Source: a virus
Virus record (IMG/VR): IMGVR_UViG_3300026076_000037
Span: 1 to 33,474 of that record
DNA: 33,474 nucleotides
Strand: one strand, 5' to 3'
Positions 3,389-16,632 of this stretch are shown here, in pieces. How positions within the stretch are numbered: position 1 is the first letter of the stretch; the number at the start of each line of letters is the position of its first letter. The notes beneath the pieces are model-generated. The model ran no database searches, had not been told where the DNA came from, and was given only the letters and a program-made list of their open reading frames with translations. Position numbers and translations under genes: made by a program.

Positions 3389-5004
3389 TATGATGATACC
3401 TTTAAGAATGGTGCTGACTTATCAGATCTAGATGCAGCATATTGATACAGTCTACTAGATACATCATTTCTTTCTTGAGAAGTTCCACCCATTACGATGT
3501 CAACTACCTCCAATCCTAGAAATTTAGAGAATTTCCACTGAATTCTCTGTTGTGCATTCCTACCATCAGCACTAGCAATCGCATCAAGTTCAATCTCTTC
3601 TGCAACTCTGGTTCTACTTGGGTTTCTATGCTTATAAAGGTTACCTCTATCACTCATCAGTACAACACCTTTGTTTTTGGTAGCAAGATCAAAAATCATT
3701 CTGTCTAAACTGTTTCCATGTGCTGCTCTTTTAGCACTATCAACATCATGGGTTCTAAAACAACCATTACCCTCACCATATACAGACTCAAGTATACGAT
3801 TTAGTATACCACCACCAACTTTACCACCTTTAGCACCAGCACCGAAAGCAGATCCACCTAAAATTTCACCTTGCCAAGTGTTTCCTTTACCACTTGTGTC
3901 ACGCATCTGCATATTGAATCCACTACCATCAAAGTAAGTATCCATAGAACCATACAAAGTGTTTGAACCACAAGAAATGAAGTTTTTACGTGGTCTTTCT
4001 TCACCCATGTTAGTTCTTTCTACCCTTGCTGAGTTTGCTGTTACTTTCTTCAGAGATACACCGATCAATTTCTTCTGAGTTACTAGTTCCATCAACAAAT
4101 TATTCCAACCAGCAAAGTATTCTTCAAATGTTGTTAGAGGTGATGATATAGCACAGTCACACAACCATATATCTGCTGGAGTCCACTTGTTAATGTCAGC
4201 AAAAGGTCTATCCTCTCTATCGTTTACCTCTTTAAAATGTGCGTTGATTGCTTTAACAAAATCGTTGCCGTGATACCAGTGAAAACTACTGTTTCTATAC
4301 CTTTGGTCAGCATATAATGCATTAGCAGTACGAATACTAGACTGCATCCAGTCAGGATTGTCCATCAAGTATTGATGAATATCCTCCATACTTTCTTTAG
4401 TTTCAACATGTCTAGCAACACTCTGAAAATCAGCTAAAGTACACCTATAATCATCTTGTATTGCTTGATTCAAACTATATCTAAAAGCACCAACCCAACA
4501 GGCAGCACCCTCAAACAAATCAGTGTTCTCTGAACCAGATCCAGACCCTCCACTACTACCAAACTCTGCTGTTTTTATTAAACCAGCAGGTGAAATCTTA
4601 TATTCTTTAGTCTCGTTACCAGATACTTTTAATGCTGTTAATATTTTACCAGCGTTACCTGATTTCTGATACCTTCTAGAGAATGAATCTCCACTACCAA
4701 CAGGATCAGCAAAATCAAGACTACCAGCAACACAATCCTTCATGTCTTGCAAAACTTTCTGCTCACATGTAATCACAGCAGTAGGACCAGGAGCACCATG
4801 TACTTGAACTGCTCTCCTAGTTTCTATAATATCGATAAGAACTTGTAATCGCATTTGCCCACCACGTATATCACCATACTCAGCAAATGCCATTTTATTG
4901 GCCATGTTTCTAATAGAAAACCTTCCCCTATTATTTAGAGGAAGGTCTGTTCTTTCTATCCCTTTTGCGTAGTGGTGTACCAATAGGGTTTCTTTTGAGA
5001 TCAT
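3388..5004 (-). CDS. Hypothetical protein, possible nuclease-like core (538 aa)
   Basis: A 538-aa protein I cannot assign. Around residues 270-320 it has 'KWTPADIW' followed about 40 residues later by 'LIGVSLKKV'. That spacing is loosely like a PD-(D/E)xK nuclease core (acid, then xxK on the next strand), but the second acid is replaced by Ser, so this is a weak suggestion. A Gly-rich stretch ('GGSAFGAGAKGGKVGGG') lies near 380-400. It ends in a 1-nt TAATG overlap with the ligase-like gene and starts 11 nt after a 95-aa gene. A structural role is also possible. Confidence 0.7.
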   Translation of the reverse strand: MISKETLLVHHYAKGIERTDLPLNNRGRFSIRNMANKMAFAEYGDIRGGQMRLQVLIDIIETRRAVQVHGAPGPTAVITCEQKVLQDMKDCVAGSLDFADPVGSGDSFSRRYQKSGNAGKILTALKVSGNETKEYKISPAGLIKTAEFGSSGGSGSGSENTDLFEGAACWVGAFRYSLNQAIQDDYRCTLADFQSVARHVETKESMEDIHQYLMDNPDWMQSSIRTANALYADQRYRNSSFHWYHGNDFVKAINAHFKEVNDREDRPFADINKWTPADIWLCDCAISSPLTTFEEYFAGWNNLLMELVTQKKLIGVSLKKVTANSARVERTNMGEERPRKNFISCGSNTLYGSMDTYFDGSGFNMQMRDTSGKGNTWQGEILGGSAFGAGAKGGKVGGGILNRILESVYGEGNGCFRTHDVDSAKRAAHGNSLDRMIFDLATKNKGVVLMSDRGNLYKHRNPSRTRVAEEIELDAIASADGRNAQQRIQWKFSKFLGLEVVDIVMGGTSQERNDVSSRLYQYAASRSDKSAPFLKVSS

Positions 5005-5979: not shown

Positions 5980-7362
5980 TTAAACATTCCATTCAGCGAA
6001 TTTACTTAATCGATTTTTTGTTTCAGAGAACTGAGGCATCTCTTCTTCTTCAGCAGATGAATTTAGAACTGATGTATCCTCAGCAACATCATACAGCCTC
6101 ATCTTCGATCTGTCAATACCTATCAAGAATTTCTTGTTAGAGGTAGGATCATTGTAACGATTCTTTAGTTGCTTAACTAATAATCTGTTTTGACTTTCCA
6201 ACTCCTCAGTAGATATGAGAGCGAACATAAGGTCAGCAGTAGCAGGGAGTCCGAAAGACTCTGACGTGTCAGTAAGGTCAGGATCGCTAGACCCGAAACC
6301 AGCACGAGTAGTTTGAGTAGCACTGACAATCGGTACGTTATGCTCGACAGCAAGACCCCGAAGCTCTTCAGCAATCGCTTTAACATAAGTGTAACTGTTT
6401 ACAATAGCACCTTTATACCGTGCAGAAGCACAGATATTAAGGTAGTCCACAAATATAATTTGTGGTTTGAAATCTTTCTTCAAAGACAAGTCTGATAACA
6501 ATGCTTTGAAGTGTCCAGCATGTGCTGAAGCAGTAGGATATTCTTTAATGATAAGTTTACCCTGTGTCTTTCTAGCAATCTCCTGTACCTTAGAATTATA
6601 CAGAACTTCAGGTAGTTCTGGTATATCTTTGATGTTACAGTTTAAAAGATTTGCGTCAATTCGTTCAGCAATCTTCTCCTCTGCCATCTCACATGTAATG
6701 TAGAGAACGTTGATCCCCGATGTGAGACAGGCACTAGCCATGTGGCACATGAATAAACTTTTCCCGACACCTGTACCAGCAAGAGCGATGTTGAGAGTCT
6801 TATTAGGGAGACCACCTTTTGTAATATAGTTAAACTTCTCCAGATCAAAGGGAATTTTCTCCTCTGTTTTATGGTAGAAGGCATATCTATCTTCAGATTG
6901 TTCAATGTAGTCATGTCCAATGTGTTCATCAAAGGAGACAGCTAAAGCATCTTGCAAGATACTTGGTATAGCATCCTTGCTAAGCTTCTTATCTCCACCG
7001 TCAGCAATCTTAATCGACTGCATGAGCGCAAGATATATAGCACGGTCTTGACACCATTTTTCTGTGGCATCTACAACCCAATCAAAGTCTACCCACTCGT
7101 CAGTAAGTTCACGTATGGTAGTAACAGACTGATTAAATGTATCTTCAGTTAGATCAGTCCTATTTTGCAGGTTAATGATGACAACTTCTTGAGTAGGAAG
7201 TTTATCATACTTCACTGCAAAGTCAGCAATCTCTTCAAAGATTACTCTTTCATGGAATTCTTGAAAATAATCAGGCTTAAGGAAAGGAACCACCTTACGA
7301 TAGTACTCCTCAGTAAATATGAGGTTACGTAAGATAGTTTCTTCAATCCTTTCAGTTGCCAT
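5980..7362 (-). CDS. 41: Replicative DNA helicase gp41 (DnaB-like)
   Basis: A 460-aa RecA-fold hexameric helicase that unwinds DNA ahead of the phage replisome and recruits primase. The Walker A motif AGTGVGKS is at residues 195-202. A Walker B-type strand follows ('IIFVDYLNI', about 297-305), then the conserved 'SATQTTRAG' segment. The N-terminal domain (1-150) matches the DnaB/gp41 helical layout. Length is close to T4 gp41. It overlaps the 3' end of uvsX by 11 nt and is followed by mazG, in the usual uvsX-41 order of T4-like cyanophages. Confidence 0.93.
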
Positions 7363-8365
7363 AACTGTACTCCGTTCGAGCTGCTTCTTCTAGTTTTGCC
7401 ATCACTTCGTCTGTGAAGTATTTCTCAGGATCACTGAGTATAGACTTAGGGTAAACATTAGTGTCACCAACTTTGATACGGTTCCCCACCCTTGTGAATA
7501 CTCCGTACTTCTCACCAAGCTCCAAGAGTCCGTAATAGCGGTCCAATCCACGTTCGTCAAAGTATAATCGTGTAGCAACTTTAGAACCCTCCTGAGTAAA
7601 TCGTGATTTTTTTGCTTCGCACTTAATGATGTTACCCACCACGTCAGTGCCATCCTTCTCTTTCGATTTGGATAAGAATATTATAGTAGATGCAGCATAC
7701 TTTAGTCCAGCCCCACCGCCCATTTCTTTCATTGGCACATAGCTTCCGATCACATCATATGTGTGATTCGTGACAAGCATAGGAATACCTGCTTGTCCTA
7801 GTTTCAAGGTCAATACCCTGAATGCACCCTTGATCAACTGTGATTTGGTCATATCTCTGACCTGTTTATCATTGGAGATGTCATCCATCTCTTTTGATGT
7901 TGATAGCATACCAAGAGAATCAAGGACAAACATCAATGGTTGACGCTGATCCTTTGGTTCCTTCATATATTTGTCAACAATCCTAGTTGCCTGAGTCCTG
8001 AACTCTTCTATCGTGGCAACAGGGAATATGACCATACGTTTAGAATCAATTCCTCTGGATTCAATGATGTCCTTGCTGAGAGCAGACTCAGACTCAAAAT
8101 AAATAACCCCACCGTTGCTATTGTTATCAAGAAAGTTACGTACAACGCTAAGGGCAAAGAAAGTTTTTCCTGTTGAGGATTCTCCTGCGAGTGCTGTGAC
8201 TTTGTTAGAGGGAATGCCACCGAAAAGAGAACCGCTAACGACAGCATTAAAAATATAGCTACCTGTATCAACAAAACTGGATGTATCTCCTGCAGCCACT
8301 CCGTCACTGACCCTACTAGCAAACTCATTACCACTATCTTTAATTACATTATCTAGGAATCCCAT
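7352..8365 (-). CDS. uvsX: Recombinase UvsX (RecA-like)
   Basis: A 337-aa RecA/UvsX strand-exchange protein, shorter than T4 UvsX (about 390 aa), as is common in cyanophages. Walker A GESSTGKT lies at 61-68, and Walker B '[10 protein letters not shown]' has D149. Loop regions '[19 protein letters not shown]' match the RecA core. It acts with UvsY and the gp46/47 nuclease in recombination-dependent replication. A 59-aa gene overlaps its start by 17 nt and gp41 overlaps its end by 11 nt. Confidence 0.95.
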
Positions 8366-12202: not shown

Positions 12203-12934
12203 CTACAACTTAGTTGACAACAGGATTATTTTCGCAAGATCCGTATCAGAAGTTTCGGTTTTCCTGATATATTTGAAGTTGTATTCATTAAAAAGATCGA
12301 AAGCTAGGGTATACCGAACCTTCGAACTAGGATTTCTATCAACCCTATGCTGCAACCATGAAGGAAAGAATGTAACAGCACCTGGTTTATTAAGTACCCT
12401 GAAGTACCCATGATATAAACTAAACAATGGTATCCAATAGTCTGTATAAGTAGATGGTTCTAACTTATGCAATGCCATGTTACCACTGACGAATGCATTC
12501 TCATGTATAGCATGTGAGTGCATCCCTATGCTATGACCTTGCTCTAATCTAGCAAACCATCCTCTAATCCATATATCTTTTCTATCTAAGACTTCTACTT
12601 CAAGAGTATTACAATACTCTACATAACTGTCATAGATTAAATCTCTAAGGACTTTGAAGATTGTATTGTCCCAAGAGAAAACATTATATTTTGTCCACCA
12701 ATCCTTATAGTCAGCACCAGTTAAAAACTTTGCTTGTTCTACTTGACCTATACGAGCCTGACCTGCTATTAGATTTAATTCTTTACCAAGTATCTCTGGA
12801 TATTCATCACAAAAAACATGTGCATCTATATTAGGTGCAAAGGGTGTCTTAGGTTCCCACGTTTTCCATCTATGTAACTTACCATTAATTGATTTTATAA
12901 CAAGAGCATTGACATCATTACTGCCATTAATCAT
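12203..12934 (-). CDS. Putative 2OG-Fe(II) oxygenase-like protein (243 aa)
   Basis: A 243-aa protein whose C-terminal half looks like the double-stranded beta-helix of 2-oxoglutarate/Fe(II) oxygenases. 'GMHSHAIHENAFVSG' (137-151) carries the first metal-site histidines in an HxH arrangement. 'GAVTFFPSWLQHRVDRNP' (185-202) carries the distal H196, and R207 could bind 2-oxoglutarate. The usual HxD aspartate is replaced by His (H139-S-H141), so activity is uncertain. Homologous phage proteins are common in cyanophages but their substrates are mostly unknown. The gene overlaps the end of regA by 4 nt. Confidence 0.65.
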   Translation of the reverse strand: MINGSNDVNALVIKSINGKLHRWKTWEPKTPFAPNIDAHVFCDEYPEILGKELNLIAGQARIGQVEQAKFLTGADYKDWWTKYNVFSWDNTIFKVLRDLIYDSYVEYCNTLEVEVLDRKDIWIRGWFARLEQGHSIGMHSHAIHENAFVSGNMALHKLEPSTYTDYWIPLFSLYHGYFRVLNKPGAVTFFPSWLQHRVDRNPSSKVRYTLAFDLFNEYNFKYIRKTETSDTDLAKIILLSTKL

Positions 12935-13356
12935 TGTGTCTCAGTTTTCTTTCTACCAATATTATACTTGCTTTCTAGTGTCCAGTCACCCTTCTCTTTG
13001 AATGCCAAGACTTTGATTTGATTGAGTGGTGCTAAATCGAGTACCTTATTACTATCAGAGATTTTAATCAATCCCCAATCAGATAGTAACTGTACAATTC
13101 TGTTACGACGTTGCACATCATTTGTTGATAAGTTAGTTTTCTTACCATCCAAAGCAAACAGTTCTTTAAAATGAACTATGTAATACTTACCTTGCTTGTG
13201 TAGAATATGGCAAGATTGATAAATCTTTTTTTCCTTACGAGATGCTACTCCTATCCTAGTTAGAGTCTCCCTCACTTTTAGAAAATCATCTGGTTCACTC
13301 AGCATGACTTCAATCATGTCTGATTGTTTCCACTGGATCTCAGTTTCGACGCTCAT
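12931..13356 (-). CDS. regA: Translational repressor RegA
   Basis: A 141-aa RegA protein. 'FLKVRETLTRIGVASRKEKKIYQSCHILHKQGKYYIVHFKEL' closely follows T4 RegA, as do 'LSDWGLIKI' and 'KYNIGRKK' near the end. RegA binds ribosome-binding sites of early phage mRNAs and represses their translation. I chose the ATG at 13356 because GGGTGG precedes it at normal spacing. A GTG three codons upstream (13365) and an ATG at 13317 (the point where T4 RegA begins) are alternatives. It overlaps the end of gp62 by 17 nt, as in T4 where 44-62-regA-43 are clustered. Confidence 0.93.
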   Translation of the reverse strand: MSVETEIQWKQSDMIEVMLSEPDDFLKVRETLTRIGVASRKEKKIYQSCHILHKQGKYYIVHFKELFALDGKKTNLSTNDVQRRNRIVQLLSDWGLIKISDSNKVLDLAPLNQIKVLAFKEKGDWTLESKYNIGRKKTETQ

Positions 13357-13735
13357 TGTTTCCACCCTTTCTCAATGAATATGTTATATGTTCAATCTGA
13401 TCCTTGGTGAGAATCCTGAGTGCTTGCAGAGCTTTATCATCATTATAACCATAATACTCTTTAACTACGTCAAGATAATCAATAGAATCTTTACGTGCCC
13501 ATGGCGAAAAACGCTTTCTAGGCTTGAGACTATTTATATAAAAGTCGTACTGCATCTTCTTAGGAAGGTGGGCAGACTTATTCATTTCATTGGCATAAAG
13601 AATTGCATCTGTGAATGATGACAAACATCTATTCACAACATAGGGTGCATATCTTTTGACAGCATCAGCATCTCCATCCATCAAATTCTTTTTGGATTGA
13701 TTGATGGAATAGAGATAATCTTTGAGTTGATACAT
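13340..13735 (-). CDS. 62: Clamp loader small subunit gp62
   Basis: A 131-aa gp62, shorter than T4 gp62 (187 aa) as in other cyanophages. 'YAPYVVNRCLSSFTDAILYANEMN' and 'LPKKMQYDFYINSLKPRKRFSPWARK' are the hallmark segments. It forms the clamp-loading complex with gp44 and places the gp45 ring on DNA. Unusually, it is parted from gp44 by Dam and three tiny genes. Its ATG begins 1 nt before the stop codon of the PsbN-like gene, and its end overlaps regA. Confidence 0.9.
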   Translation of the reverse strand: MYQLKDYLYSINQSKKNLMDGDADAVKRYAPYVVNRCLSSFTDAILYANEMNKSAHLPKKMQYDFYINSLKPRKRFSPWARKDSIDYLDVVKEYYGYNDDKALQALRILTKDQIEHITYSLRKGGNNERRN

Positions 13736-13736
13736 G

Positions 13737-13889
13737 TCAGTCGTGTTTGTGTGCTATACCCAACTCATGCATCTTAGCATGTTCTGCGATTGGGTCACGT
13801 AGTTCTTTTCTGCCTGGTCCTACGGTCAAGTATAGACCATACCCCATAACAAAAAACAGTAGTGCTACGATTATGAAAACTAAAATCAT
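13737..13889 (-). CDS. psbN-like: PsbN-like membrane protein (50 aa)
   Basis: A 50-aa protein with an N-terminal membrane helix (residues 1-21, 'ILVFIIVALLFFVMGYGLYL') followed by 'VGPGRKELRDPIAEH'. The pattern GYxLYxxxGxxxxxLRDPxxEH is that of PsbN, a roughly 43-aa thylakoid protein needed for photosystem II assembly and repair. The His-rich tail after 'EH' is an extension. ATG (13889) overlaps the TGA of a 34-aa gene (ATGA), and the stop is 1 nt from the gp62 start. Phage copies of photosystem genes are well known, so a role in keeping PSII working during infection is plausible; the homology call rests on the motif. Confidence 0.7.
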   Translation of the reverse strand: MILVFIIVALLFFVMGYGLYLTVGPGRKELRDPIAEHAKMHELGIAHKHD

Positions 13890-13990
13890 TTCTCTTGGTC
13901 TTGTTTCTTCCAGTGTTCGATTAACAAAAGTAGTTCATCGATTCGCTTTAATGCTATATCGATTTTCTCTTGTAGATTTGTTTTGCTCAT
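13886..13990 (-). CDS. Tiny helical protein (34 aa)
   Basis: A 34-aa protein predicted to be one long amphipathic helix ('NLQEKIDIALKRIDELLLLI'), with leucine/isoleucine at a-and-d-like positions ending 'HWKKQDQEK'. Such a peptide would suit a coiled-coil dimer. No family is recognised. It is linked by ATGA overlaps to the 47-aa gene before it and to the PsbN-like gene after it, which makes translation likely despite its size. Confidence 0.55.
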   Translation of the reverse strand: MSKTNLQEKIDIALKRIDELLLLIEHWKKQDQEK

Positions 13991-14211: not shown

Positions 14212-15045
14212 TCAGTAGTTCAAAAGAACCAGTTCTTTACGTTCATGTTGTTCCTTCATATAGTTACCAACAGTACGCATGCTGTAAGTGTGATCGAACT
14301 CAGCAGCATTCCAATCTTTGAATCTGTCTCGTACTACCTGACTGCTGTTATATGATATCAGCATAGGTGCAGTATGATCATCACAATCGTGAGCAAACTT
14401 ATCGTGATCAAAATACTTATGCATAGCACCCCTCTTCCCATAGATAGGAATCTTAATATCGTAGGGTGGATCAAGATAAACGAATACATCCTTCTTATCT
14501 GTTAGAAGGGATTCGTAGGTGTCGTTGGTAATTTTCCATCCTTCAATAAGCTCGGAGTATTCCATGAGTCTTTCAATTCCATTGATGGAGAAGTTGGACT
14601 CGCTTGCTTGTTTTGAGAACGACGAGGACTCAGTGAGACCACTAAAACTGCACTTATTGACAATATAAAAACTGACAGCACGACGGAAGTCTTCAGTCTC
14701 TTCTGTGGACAGATACTCTTTAGATCTGGTAAAGATGTCCCTTGCCAGATCGGGAGTATGATATTCTTTTTTGATTTGTGTAAGTTCATCTTGTAATTTT
14801 TCACCATCATGTTGTAATACTTGCCAGAAATTTGCAAGAGGTTCATAGAGATCATTGACCCAGATCTCTATGTGAGGATACCTCTTCGTAATTTCTAATG
14901 CTACTGACCCACCACCTAAAAAGGGTTCACGAAACTCTTTTACCTGGGTAAGGTCTGGGAGGTATTGCAGCAACTTTACTATCGCTCTGCTCTTCCCTCC
15001 TGGATAACGCAGTGGTGTCTTCAGTGATTTTAGTGTTCTGGGCAT
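14212..15045 (-). CDS. dam: DNA adenine methyltransferase (Dam-like, N6)
   Basis: A 277-aa class D12/Dam-type N6-adenine methyltransferase. It shows 'PLRYPGGKSRA' at 11-21, motif I 'PFLGGGSVAL' at 41-50, the D12 'SFYIVNKCSFSG' segment at 125-136, and motif IV DPPY at 192-195. It transfers a methyl group from S-adenosylmethionine to adenine, probably in a short site such as GATC, to protect phage DNA or mark it. No companion restriction enzyme is seen. It follows gp44 by 67 nt. Its ATG lacks a good Shine-Dalgarno sequence, while an out-of-frame ATG 31 nt upstream has one. Confidence 0.92.
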   Translation of the reverse strand: MPRTLKSLKTPLRYPGGKSRAIVKLLQYLPDLTQVKEFREPFLGGGSVALEITKRYPHIEIWVNDLYEPLANFWQVLQHDGEKLQDELTQIKKEYHTPDLARDIFTRSKEYLSTEETEDFRRAVSFYIVNKCSFSGLTESSSFSKQASESNFSINGIERLMEYSELIEGWKITNDTYESLLTDKKDVFVYLDPPYDIKIPIYGKRGAMHKYFDHDKFAHDCDDHTAPMLISYNSSQVVRDRFKDWNAAEFDHTYSMRTVGNYMKEQHERKELVLLNY

Positions 15046-15112: not shown

Positions 15113-16057
15113 TTATTGGAATTCGCAAGTCATCATAATTTCAGTCAGACATGCAAGCATATTGATCTCTTGATCTGGTACATTGGAGATATCTCTCATG
15201 TACTTTGCGATAACTAGTACCGCCTCTGGTATTGAGTTGGGTTTGAGTACGCCATATAAATTGTCATAAATCTTACGCATTACCATGCTAGGATCATTAT
15301 CCATATGCTGTACCACCCAAGTCTTTACAGTCTTAAAGTCTTTCTGCTTTAAAGCCGTAAGCAAATGATCAAAATTAACATCAGCAACATCAACGAGAAT
15401 AGCTGAGTCAATGGATCCATTAGCAGCATAGCGTTGACACTCATTGATAACCCTACGCCAATCAGGATAGTACCTAGTAATAAGCTTAGCCAGAACTTTG
15501 TCTTCAAATTTAACATTCTCTGATTTTAATATAGTTCTAAGTCGTTCAAAGAACTGACCCTGTAATGCTACAGTCTGTCCATTCTTTACACGAAAATCAA
15601 TAACTGTACACCTAGAGTGTAGTGGTTCAATAATCTTGTTAATAAAATTACAAGTAAATATGAACCTACAGTTATTGTGAAACTCCTCTACAGCAGTTCT
15701 GAGAGACAGTTGGACATCGTTGGTTGTGTTATCTGCTTCATCTATAATAACAACCTTGTGGGATGCCCCAGAGGTCAGTGAGACTGTTGAAGCAAATGTC
15801 CTGATCCTGTTTCTAACAGTATCTAAGAATCTACCCTCATCAGATCCATTGATCATGATGTAGGATGCACCTATCTCATCACATAATGCTTTGGCGATGG
15901 TAGTCTTACCGACACCAGCAGATCCAGTAAGAAGTAGATTAGGTAATTCGCCTTGAGAGACGAATCCCTTGAATACATCCTTGATAGTCTGTGGGAGTAT
16001 ACAGTCATCAATCACATTTGGTCGATATTTTTCGACCCATAAAAAATCTTTGTTCAT
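15113..16057 (-). CDS. 44: Clamp loader large subunit gp44 (AAA+)
   Basis: A 314-aa AAA+ clamp-loader ATPase close in length to T4 gp44 (319 aa). From the chosen start it reads 'MNKDFLWVEKYRP', the usual N-terminus. Walker A GSAGVGKT lies at about 45-52, Walker B with a DEAD box is 'VVIIDEAD', and the SRC motif is 'LHSRCTVIDF'. It opens the gp45 ring with gp62. The frame extends 7 codons further upstream, but this ATG overlaps the oxygenase stop codon as TAATG and fits the family, so I prefer it. Confidence 0.93.
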   Translation of the reverse strand: MNKDFLWVEKYRPNVIDDCILPQTIKDVFKGFVSQGELPNLLLTGSAGVGKTTIAKALCDEIGASYIMINGSDEGRFLDTVRNRIRTFASTVSLTSGASHKVVIIDEADNTTNDVQLSLRTAVEEFHNNCRFIFTCNFINKIIEPLHSRCTVIDFRVKNGQTVALQGQFFERLRTILKSENVKFEDKVLAKLITRYYPDWRRVINECQRYAANGSIDSAILVDVADVNFDHLLTALKQKDFKTVKTWVVQHMDNDPSMVMRKIYDNLYGVLKPNSIPEAVLVIAKYMRDISNVPDQEINMLACLTEIMMTCEFQ

Positions 16058-16632
16058 TAAACGCACCAAGTAACCCAAGAATAACGTATACCACTAGTCA
16101 CTGTCGTGACTTCATGTGGAAATAAAAACACAGAAGGGAAAGCTACGACATCTCCCTTCTTTAAATCAAGTTGATACTCATTCCAGAATAGTAGGTTACC
16201 ACCTTCATAATCATCGTTAAGTACACCAATAAGACTGGTGATGGGGATCCCTCTAATGTTACCATCAAACATATCATGGATATGATCATGGTGTGGTTGA
16301 ATAGATTCACCCTCAACATATTTGTTGAACTTCATATCACCTGTAGTTGACCAGAAAATATCAGAATTGGTATTCTCTTTAACAAAATACTTTTTGTTAT
16401 ATTCAATACAGAGGTCTCTAATATATGGGAAGATCTTTTGGCGACACTTATCATTCTTTACTGTAGAAAAGTCTCCTTTACTATATGAAGATTGATCACC
16501 AGCATCATACCAACCATGATCTTCCCACTTGTTCTTCTTCTCTAATCTCTTAATTACACTATCGCATACATCCTCTGGTAGAAGATTCATTTTGAAAATG
16601 TAATCTTTGAGATGAGGATATTTTAAACTCAA
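16057..16632 (-). CDS. 2OG-Fe(II) oxygenase (191 aa)
   Basis: A 191-aa 2-oxoglutarate/Fe(II) dioxygenase of the prolyl-hydroxylase-like type. The metal triad is complete: H114-x-D116 in 'PHHDHIHD' and distal H173 in 'FLFPHEVTTVTSGIRYSW', with R183 placed to bind 2-oxoglutarate. 'YEGGNLLFW' and 'KKGDVVAFPS' are typical of the fold. The substrate is unknown, whether a protein side chain or a nucleic acid. It sits between clamp gp45 and loader gp44 with 4-nt and TAATG overlaps, so it is co-expressed with the replisome. Confidence 0.88.
   Translation of the reverse strand: MSLKYPHLKDYIFKMNLLPEDVCDSVIKRLEKKNKWEDHGWYDAGDQSSYSKGDFSTVKNDKCRQKIFPYIRDLCIEYNKKYFVKENTNSDIFWSTTGDMKFNKYVEGESIQPHHDHIHDMFDGNIRGIPITSLIGVLNDDYEGGNLLFWNEYQLDLKKGDVVAFPSVFLFPHEVTTVTSGIRYSWVTWCV

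Follow-up and report, generated by a model that had tools for sequence, protein, structure and literature searches.

The window, a stretch of 33,474 nt (IMG/VR record IMGVR_UViG_3300026076_000037, positions 1 to 33,474), comes from a marine cyanobacterial virus with a PsbN-like gene in its DNA-replication cluster. The gene is an ORF whose 50-aa translation is MILVFIIVALLFFVMGYGLYLTVGPGRKELRDPIAEHAKMHELGIAHKHD. The ORF is real, as the preliminary description had it, although the strand had gone unstated there: the coding strand is minus, the same as that of the surrounding replication genes, and the plus strand at 13737-13889 is interrupted by stops. The N-terminal membrane helix followed by GYxLYxxxGxxxxxLRDPxxEH that had been read in it is borne out by an exact motif at residues 16-37 and by an AlphaFold2 helix (Table 1). 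A second helix at residues 32-41 is less certain in this single-sequence model, the confidence of which is moderate after residue 20; in a full-tailed relative, helices 2-23 and 31-43 and a disordered end are predicted. Because basic residues come directly after the membrane helix, the C-terminus is probably cytoplasmic by the positive-inside rule.

Table 1. Features of the PsbN-like gene and its neighbours in the window.
Feature	Position	Strand	Remarks
PsbN-like ORF, 50 aa	13737..13889	-	ATG at 13889, stop TGA 13739-13737
Predicted single membrane helix, residues 2-22	13824..13886	-	AlphaFold2 helix, pLDDT ~90 in first 20 residues
PsbN signature, residues 16-37, GYGLYLTVGPGRKELRDPIAEH	13779..13844	-	PF02468: residues 2-37 = model positions 6-41 of 43
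Phage-specific tail, residues 38-50, AKMHELGIAHKHD	13740..13778	-	Shorter than the usual AKMHELGIAHGHGGNKxAYEMSGKLxHxHD/E
34-aa microprotein ORF, MSKTNLQEKIDIALKRIDELLLLIEHWKKQDQEK	13886..13990	-	ATGA overlaps with phrog_685 stop and psbN start
phrog_685 protein, 47 aa	13987..14130	-	E 4.6e-24
Dam, D12-class adenine methyltransferase	14212..15045	-	E 1.2e-31
gp62 clamp loader subunit	13340..13735	-	ATG 1 nt past psbN stop (TGA C ATG)
RegA translational repressor	12931..13365	-	E 3.5e-44
gp44 clamp loader subunit	15113..16078	-	ORF; DNA alignment to annotated gp44 of Synechococcus phages

In the order of transcription, the genes are gp45, a 2OG oxygenase-like ORF, gp44, Dam, phrog_685, the 34-aa ORF, the PsbN-like gene, gp62, RegA, a second 2OG oxygenase-like ORF and an Hsp20-like ORF. 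The position inside the DNA-replication cluster is thus as first reported, with gp45, gp44, Dam, gp62 and RegA around the ORF. The placement between Dam and gp62 is correct for the neighbourhood but not for immediate adjacency on the Dam side, where phrog_685 and the 34-aa ORF intervene. The stop codon of phrog_685 overlaps the ATG of the 34-aa ORF, the stop of which in turn overlaps the psbN ATG. This packing around psbN looks like translational coupling, by which the microprotein, the PsbN-like protein and gp62 would be translated together. Promoter-like sites showed no excess in the region (22 found vs 25.7 in shuffles), and no PsbNH or other RNA motif was matched in an Rfam search of the window. 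The suggestion that psbN in the window belongs to an early transcript is plausible.

The assignment to the PsbN family is supported by the Pfam profile PF02468, which matches the protein with an E-value of 3.6e-7 and 30.4 bits over a curated gathering cut-off of 25 and is the only Pfam family to do so. The similarity in a profile search is therefore significant, and a six-frame scan of the record with the PsbN profile gave a single match (E 3.1e-8). The alignment to plant-type PsbN by BLASTP reached 39% over 36 residues; this plant-type sequence served as a yardstick and a Prochlorococcus-like PsbN as bait, and only the DNA matches that they gave are used as evidence. PF02468 was over its cut-off in 6 of the 8 phage records searched, the match to phrog_8051 (E 9.4e-6) covers residues 5-39, and tblastn of the window protein reached P-SSM7 (E 2e-9) and P-SSM2 (E 1e-9). 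Because the NCBIfam equivalog NF009650 scores only 28.4 bits against a cut-off of 70, the protein is, judged by its sequence, a PsbN homologue rather than a standard PsbN or certified equivalog. It has the single N-terminal helix and the hydrophilic LRDPxxEH segment of PsbN, but it continues for 13 residues beyond EH (usually ~30 in relatives), where a PsbN of ~43 aa ends soon after EH. In hosts, the neighbour of psbN is psbH; the window gene lies between the microprotein ORF and gene 62. For a phage gene, such a context does not settle the matter.

The ORF is unbroken in the 80 closest IMG/VR loci, so the possibility that close relatives would carry it in broken form did not materialise. In these relatives, it is under strong purifying selection, with a dN/dS of ~0.04, a value lowered by choosing the loci by whole-protein similarity. 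By its sequence, the window copy is a member of a "tailed" branch, characterised by a PsbN end (LRDPxxEH) that continues into [A/S]KMHELGIAHGH. Among the sequences closest to the window, pN is 0.014 and pS 0.735 for residues 38-49. Since whole-protein selection of the 80 loci lowers dN/dS, the tail was re-measured on loci recruited with a query ending at EH, a sample unselected for the tail. Among the 61 distinct sequences obtained, the 12 residues that open the tail had a dN/dS of ~0.003 (with pS, at 0.72, close to saturation), compared with 0.125 for the 15 residues that follow and 0.154 for the 37-residue PsbN core. Only the first of the 12 tail positions varies (A or S), the other eleven being invariant; the filter left out another sequence, in which L replaces M in the tail, and a locus missed by the anchor pattern (L236) shows this same tail on visual inspection. 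Synonymous codons are used freely in the tail, and therefore what is constrained is the protein and not the DNA or RNA. The most constrained part of the protein family is its phage-specific C-terminal extension.

The tail goes together with PsbN. A PsbN-like core is present at all 78 of the 78 loci recruited by the tail, 72 by pattern and 6 by eye (IYGxYLTxG...RDPIDEH), and in named phages, the tail was found solely at T4-GC163 genes; where records were unannotated, it lay at sites already reached with the PsbN query. Database searches matched it to no family or solved structure. In the window, it ends at IAHKHD, with K replacing the usual G, as also in L007, the DNA of which is 99.9% identical; the rest of the usual His-rich tail is truncated in this copy. 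The histidines of the region are spaced as H37, H41, H47 and H49, and a second HxH usually closes the tail. The resemblance of MHELGIA to the nickel chaperone HypA has no family support and is only a lead: HypA begins with MHE and contains a HypA domain, whereas the motif is internal here (residues 40-46) and the tail alone has no Pfam match. For Met40 as an internal start that would release a free MHELGIAH peptide, no ribosome-binding site was seen by eye in the window. The absence of the tail from hosts is based on the length of 43 aa given for PsbN in the literature and on profiles of 43 and 46 positions, not on a survey; a scan of genome contigs for host PsbN gave only two plastid-like contigs in mis-binned MAGs, and plasmids gave none. 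These two contigs (L096, L097), from MAGs labelled Lactobacillus and Clostridia, carry 93-100% plant-type PsbN and are likely plastid contamination. Going beyond the preliminary description, the window protein is, on sequence grounds, not a plain PsbN but a tailed variant specific to cyanophages.

The 34-aa microprotein preceding psbN matched no family. Unannotated ORFs of 27-39 aa with the motif RIxELxxLIxHWK were found at 37 of the loci examined (the window and 36 others, e.g., L010, L043, L195, L246); they are coiled and basic in character. In 35 of the 37, the ORF shares an ATGA with a tailed psbN, its stop overlapping the psbN start, and this applies to both long and short psbN forms. The microprotein is under purifying selection, with a dN/dS of ~0.06 over 20 aligned codons in 23 distinct copies, synonymous change being saturated. 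At other loci (L012, L015, L022, L051 and ~20 more), T4-GC158 (phrog_2000), a small protein with one likely membrane helix, ends 2 nt before psbN. Both recurring neighbours are leads for partners.

Three architectures of the phage gene can be distinguished, and intermediates also occur. Untailed forms, which end, for example, in LTDPWDDHDD, carry an N-terminal extension (C/S)PxVYxLPGTW in P-SSM4, P-HM1, P-HM2, P-RSM1, S-SSM4 and many IMG/VR loci. The tailed form has this extension in P-SSM2, P-SSM5, P-SSM7 and P-TIM68, and is without it in the window and the 80 closest IMG/VR loci; an LPGTW-type motif was absent from all six frames of the window. At four loci (L116, L166, L167, L168), PSVYTLPGTW is found on a separate small membrane protein (phrog_33944) directly upstream of a psbN without it, and for this reason the sequence behaves as a module, being fused in some cases, split off in others and elsewhere lost. 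One locus (L052) has two tailed PsbN-like genes, near 3730-3977 and 7360-7599, one by Dam and the other between Hsp20 and purM.

The search of other cyanophages for the same ORF between dam and gene 62 gave a divided answer. The closest relatives with the window arrangement (L007, L010, L043) have it intact, but the site is empty in S-MbCM7, where the phrog_685 stop directly abuts gp62. Because such close cyanophages have no psbN at the junction, the pair of microprotein and psbN looks inserted. In ACG-2014i and S-CAM4, there is a different gene at the junction, and in S-RSM4 and S-H9-1, a short gap. One further locus (L246), 92% identical over 2.2 kb on one side, has the long tailed form in the same place, as if by local allele exchange. 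Of 240 short pieces, about half had a gene for gp44, Dam, gp62, RegA or gp45 beside psbN (46, 38 and 40 in three samples of 80 each); other sites are after gp43, beside talC, near gp32 and behind gp17. The stated separation of psbN from other photosystem genes holds: psbA-type Photo_RC genes occur in 13 of the 13 larger psbN-carrying phage records examined, never adjacent to psbN and 9 to ~70 kb away on assembled records, and no psbA lies in the 33-kb window.

Taken together, these data are best explained, with somewhat better than even confidence, by a membrane-bound phage PsbN homologue, the tailed cyanophage variant of T4-GC163, that aids photosystem II assembly or repair, the latter role being a best guess from homology. 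One helix would anchor the protein in the thylakoid or plasma membrane with the C-terminus on the cytoplasmic side. There it would most likely give PsbN-like help in turning D1-/D2-containing precomplexes into photosystem II reaction centres, or speed up repair, and electron flow and ATP supply would thereby persist during phage replication. The [A/S]KMHELGIAHGH segment would prolong the cytoplasmic PsbN segment with a helix and an HxH end, and the tail probably binds one fixed partner or a metal. Since psbA-type genes occur in all 13 records, these phages themselves produce a photosystem II target. Tobacco PsbN is a reaction-centre assembly factor, not a photosystem II subunit, and has its conserved C-terminus on the stromal side (PMC4823308); this role, the PF02468 matches, the purifying selection on the core and the constant presence of that core with the tail speak for the proposed function. 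Against it stand the core, only ~39% identical to plant-type PsbN, the score below the equivalog cut-off and the non-host context. Moreover, the function of PsbN is known only from tobacco; in Synechocystis, no added defect was seen in a psbH psbN double mutant, and what PsbN does in cyanobacteria is not settled (PMC4823308).

The protein may have another function, because the strongest constraint lies outside its PsbN-homologous part. The PsbN part might be a mere membrane anchor and the tail might perform a phage-specific task unrelated to photosystem II, such as metal binding, tethering replication proteins to the membrane or an envelope change against a second phage. This is rather unlikely but deserves weight, since dN/dS is ~0.003 in the tail vs 0.15 in the core, and the histidine spacing with the mostly present terminal HxH and the frequent replication-cluster location would suit such tasks. 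However, the LRDPxxEH signature has been retained as well, and this is the segment conserved at the C-terminus of PsbN. The tail was always accompanied by this signature and has no database match, and the gene location varies, as the sites after gp43, beside talC and near gp32 indicate. It is improbable that the protein is a dominant-negative or remodelling factor that displaces host PsbN and slows host-type photosystem II assembly or favours phage D1. These phages do carry their own D1, and the reportedly functional end (PMC4823308) is where the tailed form differs from canonical PsbN, but untailed forms (P-SSM4, P-HM1, others) keep a PsbN-like end. A spurious ORF with a chance resemblance might be feared with so short a frame, as hydrophobic helices easily give false matches; this hardly merits consideration, having already been refuted by conservation, with a match above the gathering cut-off, hundreds of relatives under purifying selection, the ATGA coupling upstream and the 1-nt gap to gp62. 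Within the preferred reading, a PsbN homologue acting on photosystem II, it is proposed tentatively that the KMHELGIAHGH module, usually with its second HxH, and the coupled 27-39-aa peptide form a viral device steering photosystem II assembly, which might act, e.g., through metal binding or the recruitment of a fixed host partner.

Viral PsbN and its separation from psbA and psbD are not new. T4-GC163 was designated "possible photosystem II PsbN" of T4-like cyanophages and was universal in and exclusive to the Prochlorococcus phages of the 2010 set (Sullivan et al. 2010, PMC3037559); the two PsbN passages found in that paper mention neither the tail nor a paired microprotein. The exclusivity no longer holds because T4-GC163 is present in S-SSM4 and S-SSM6b, which have Synechococcus hosts. 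PsbN has also been placed outside the D1/D2 cluster in phages (PMC7029224), and marine viruses have psbN as one of their most abundant photosynthesis genes (PMC8940887). The records of P-TIM68 and P-TIM40 annotate PsbN, and annotations already exist for relatives 69-112 aa in length, most of them as hypothetical proteins. The tailed variant, the microprotein and the N-terminal module go beyond the preliminary description, and the tailed variant with its coupled microprotein deserves attention. Phage photosynthesis genes are usually regarded as copies of host genes. Here, a phage branch has rebuilt a host assembly factor, and the added part is more constrained than the inherited one. This raises the testable questions of what the tail binds and whether it alters photosystem II building during infection, and the phage version may help to clarify the unsettled role of PsbN in cyanobacteria.

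With the PsbN of cyanobacteria and plastids (PF02468), the phage protein has in common one N-terminal helix followed by GYxLYxxxG...LRDPxxEH. The canonical gene stands beside psbH, whereas the phage form is found in replication or other early-type phage clusters. Canonical PsbN has ~43 aa (PMC4823308), and the phage form has the added KMHELGIAHGH tail. T4-GC163 and phrog_8051 are the same family, and its members from P-SSM2, P-SSM7, P-SSM4, P-HM1 and P-HM2 align with the window protein; these T4-GC163 isolates have the N-terminal PSVYTLPGTW extension, whereas the window copy is without it and has a shortened tail.
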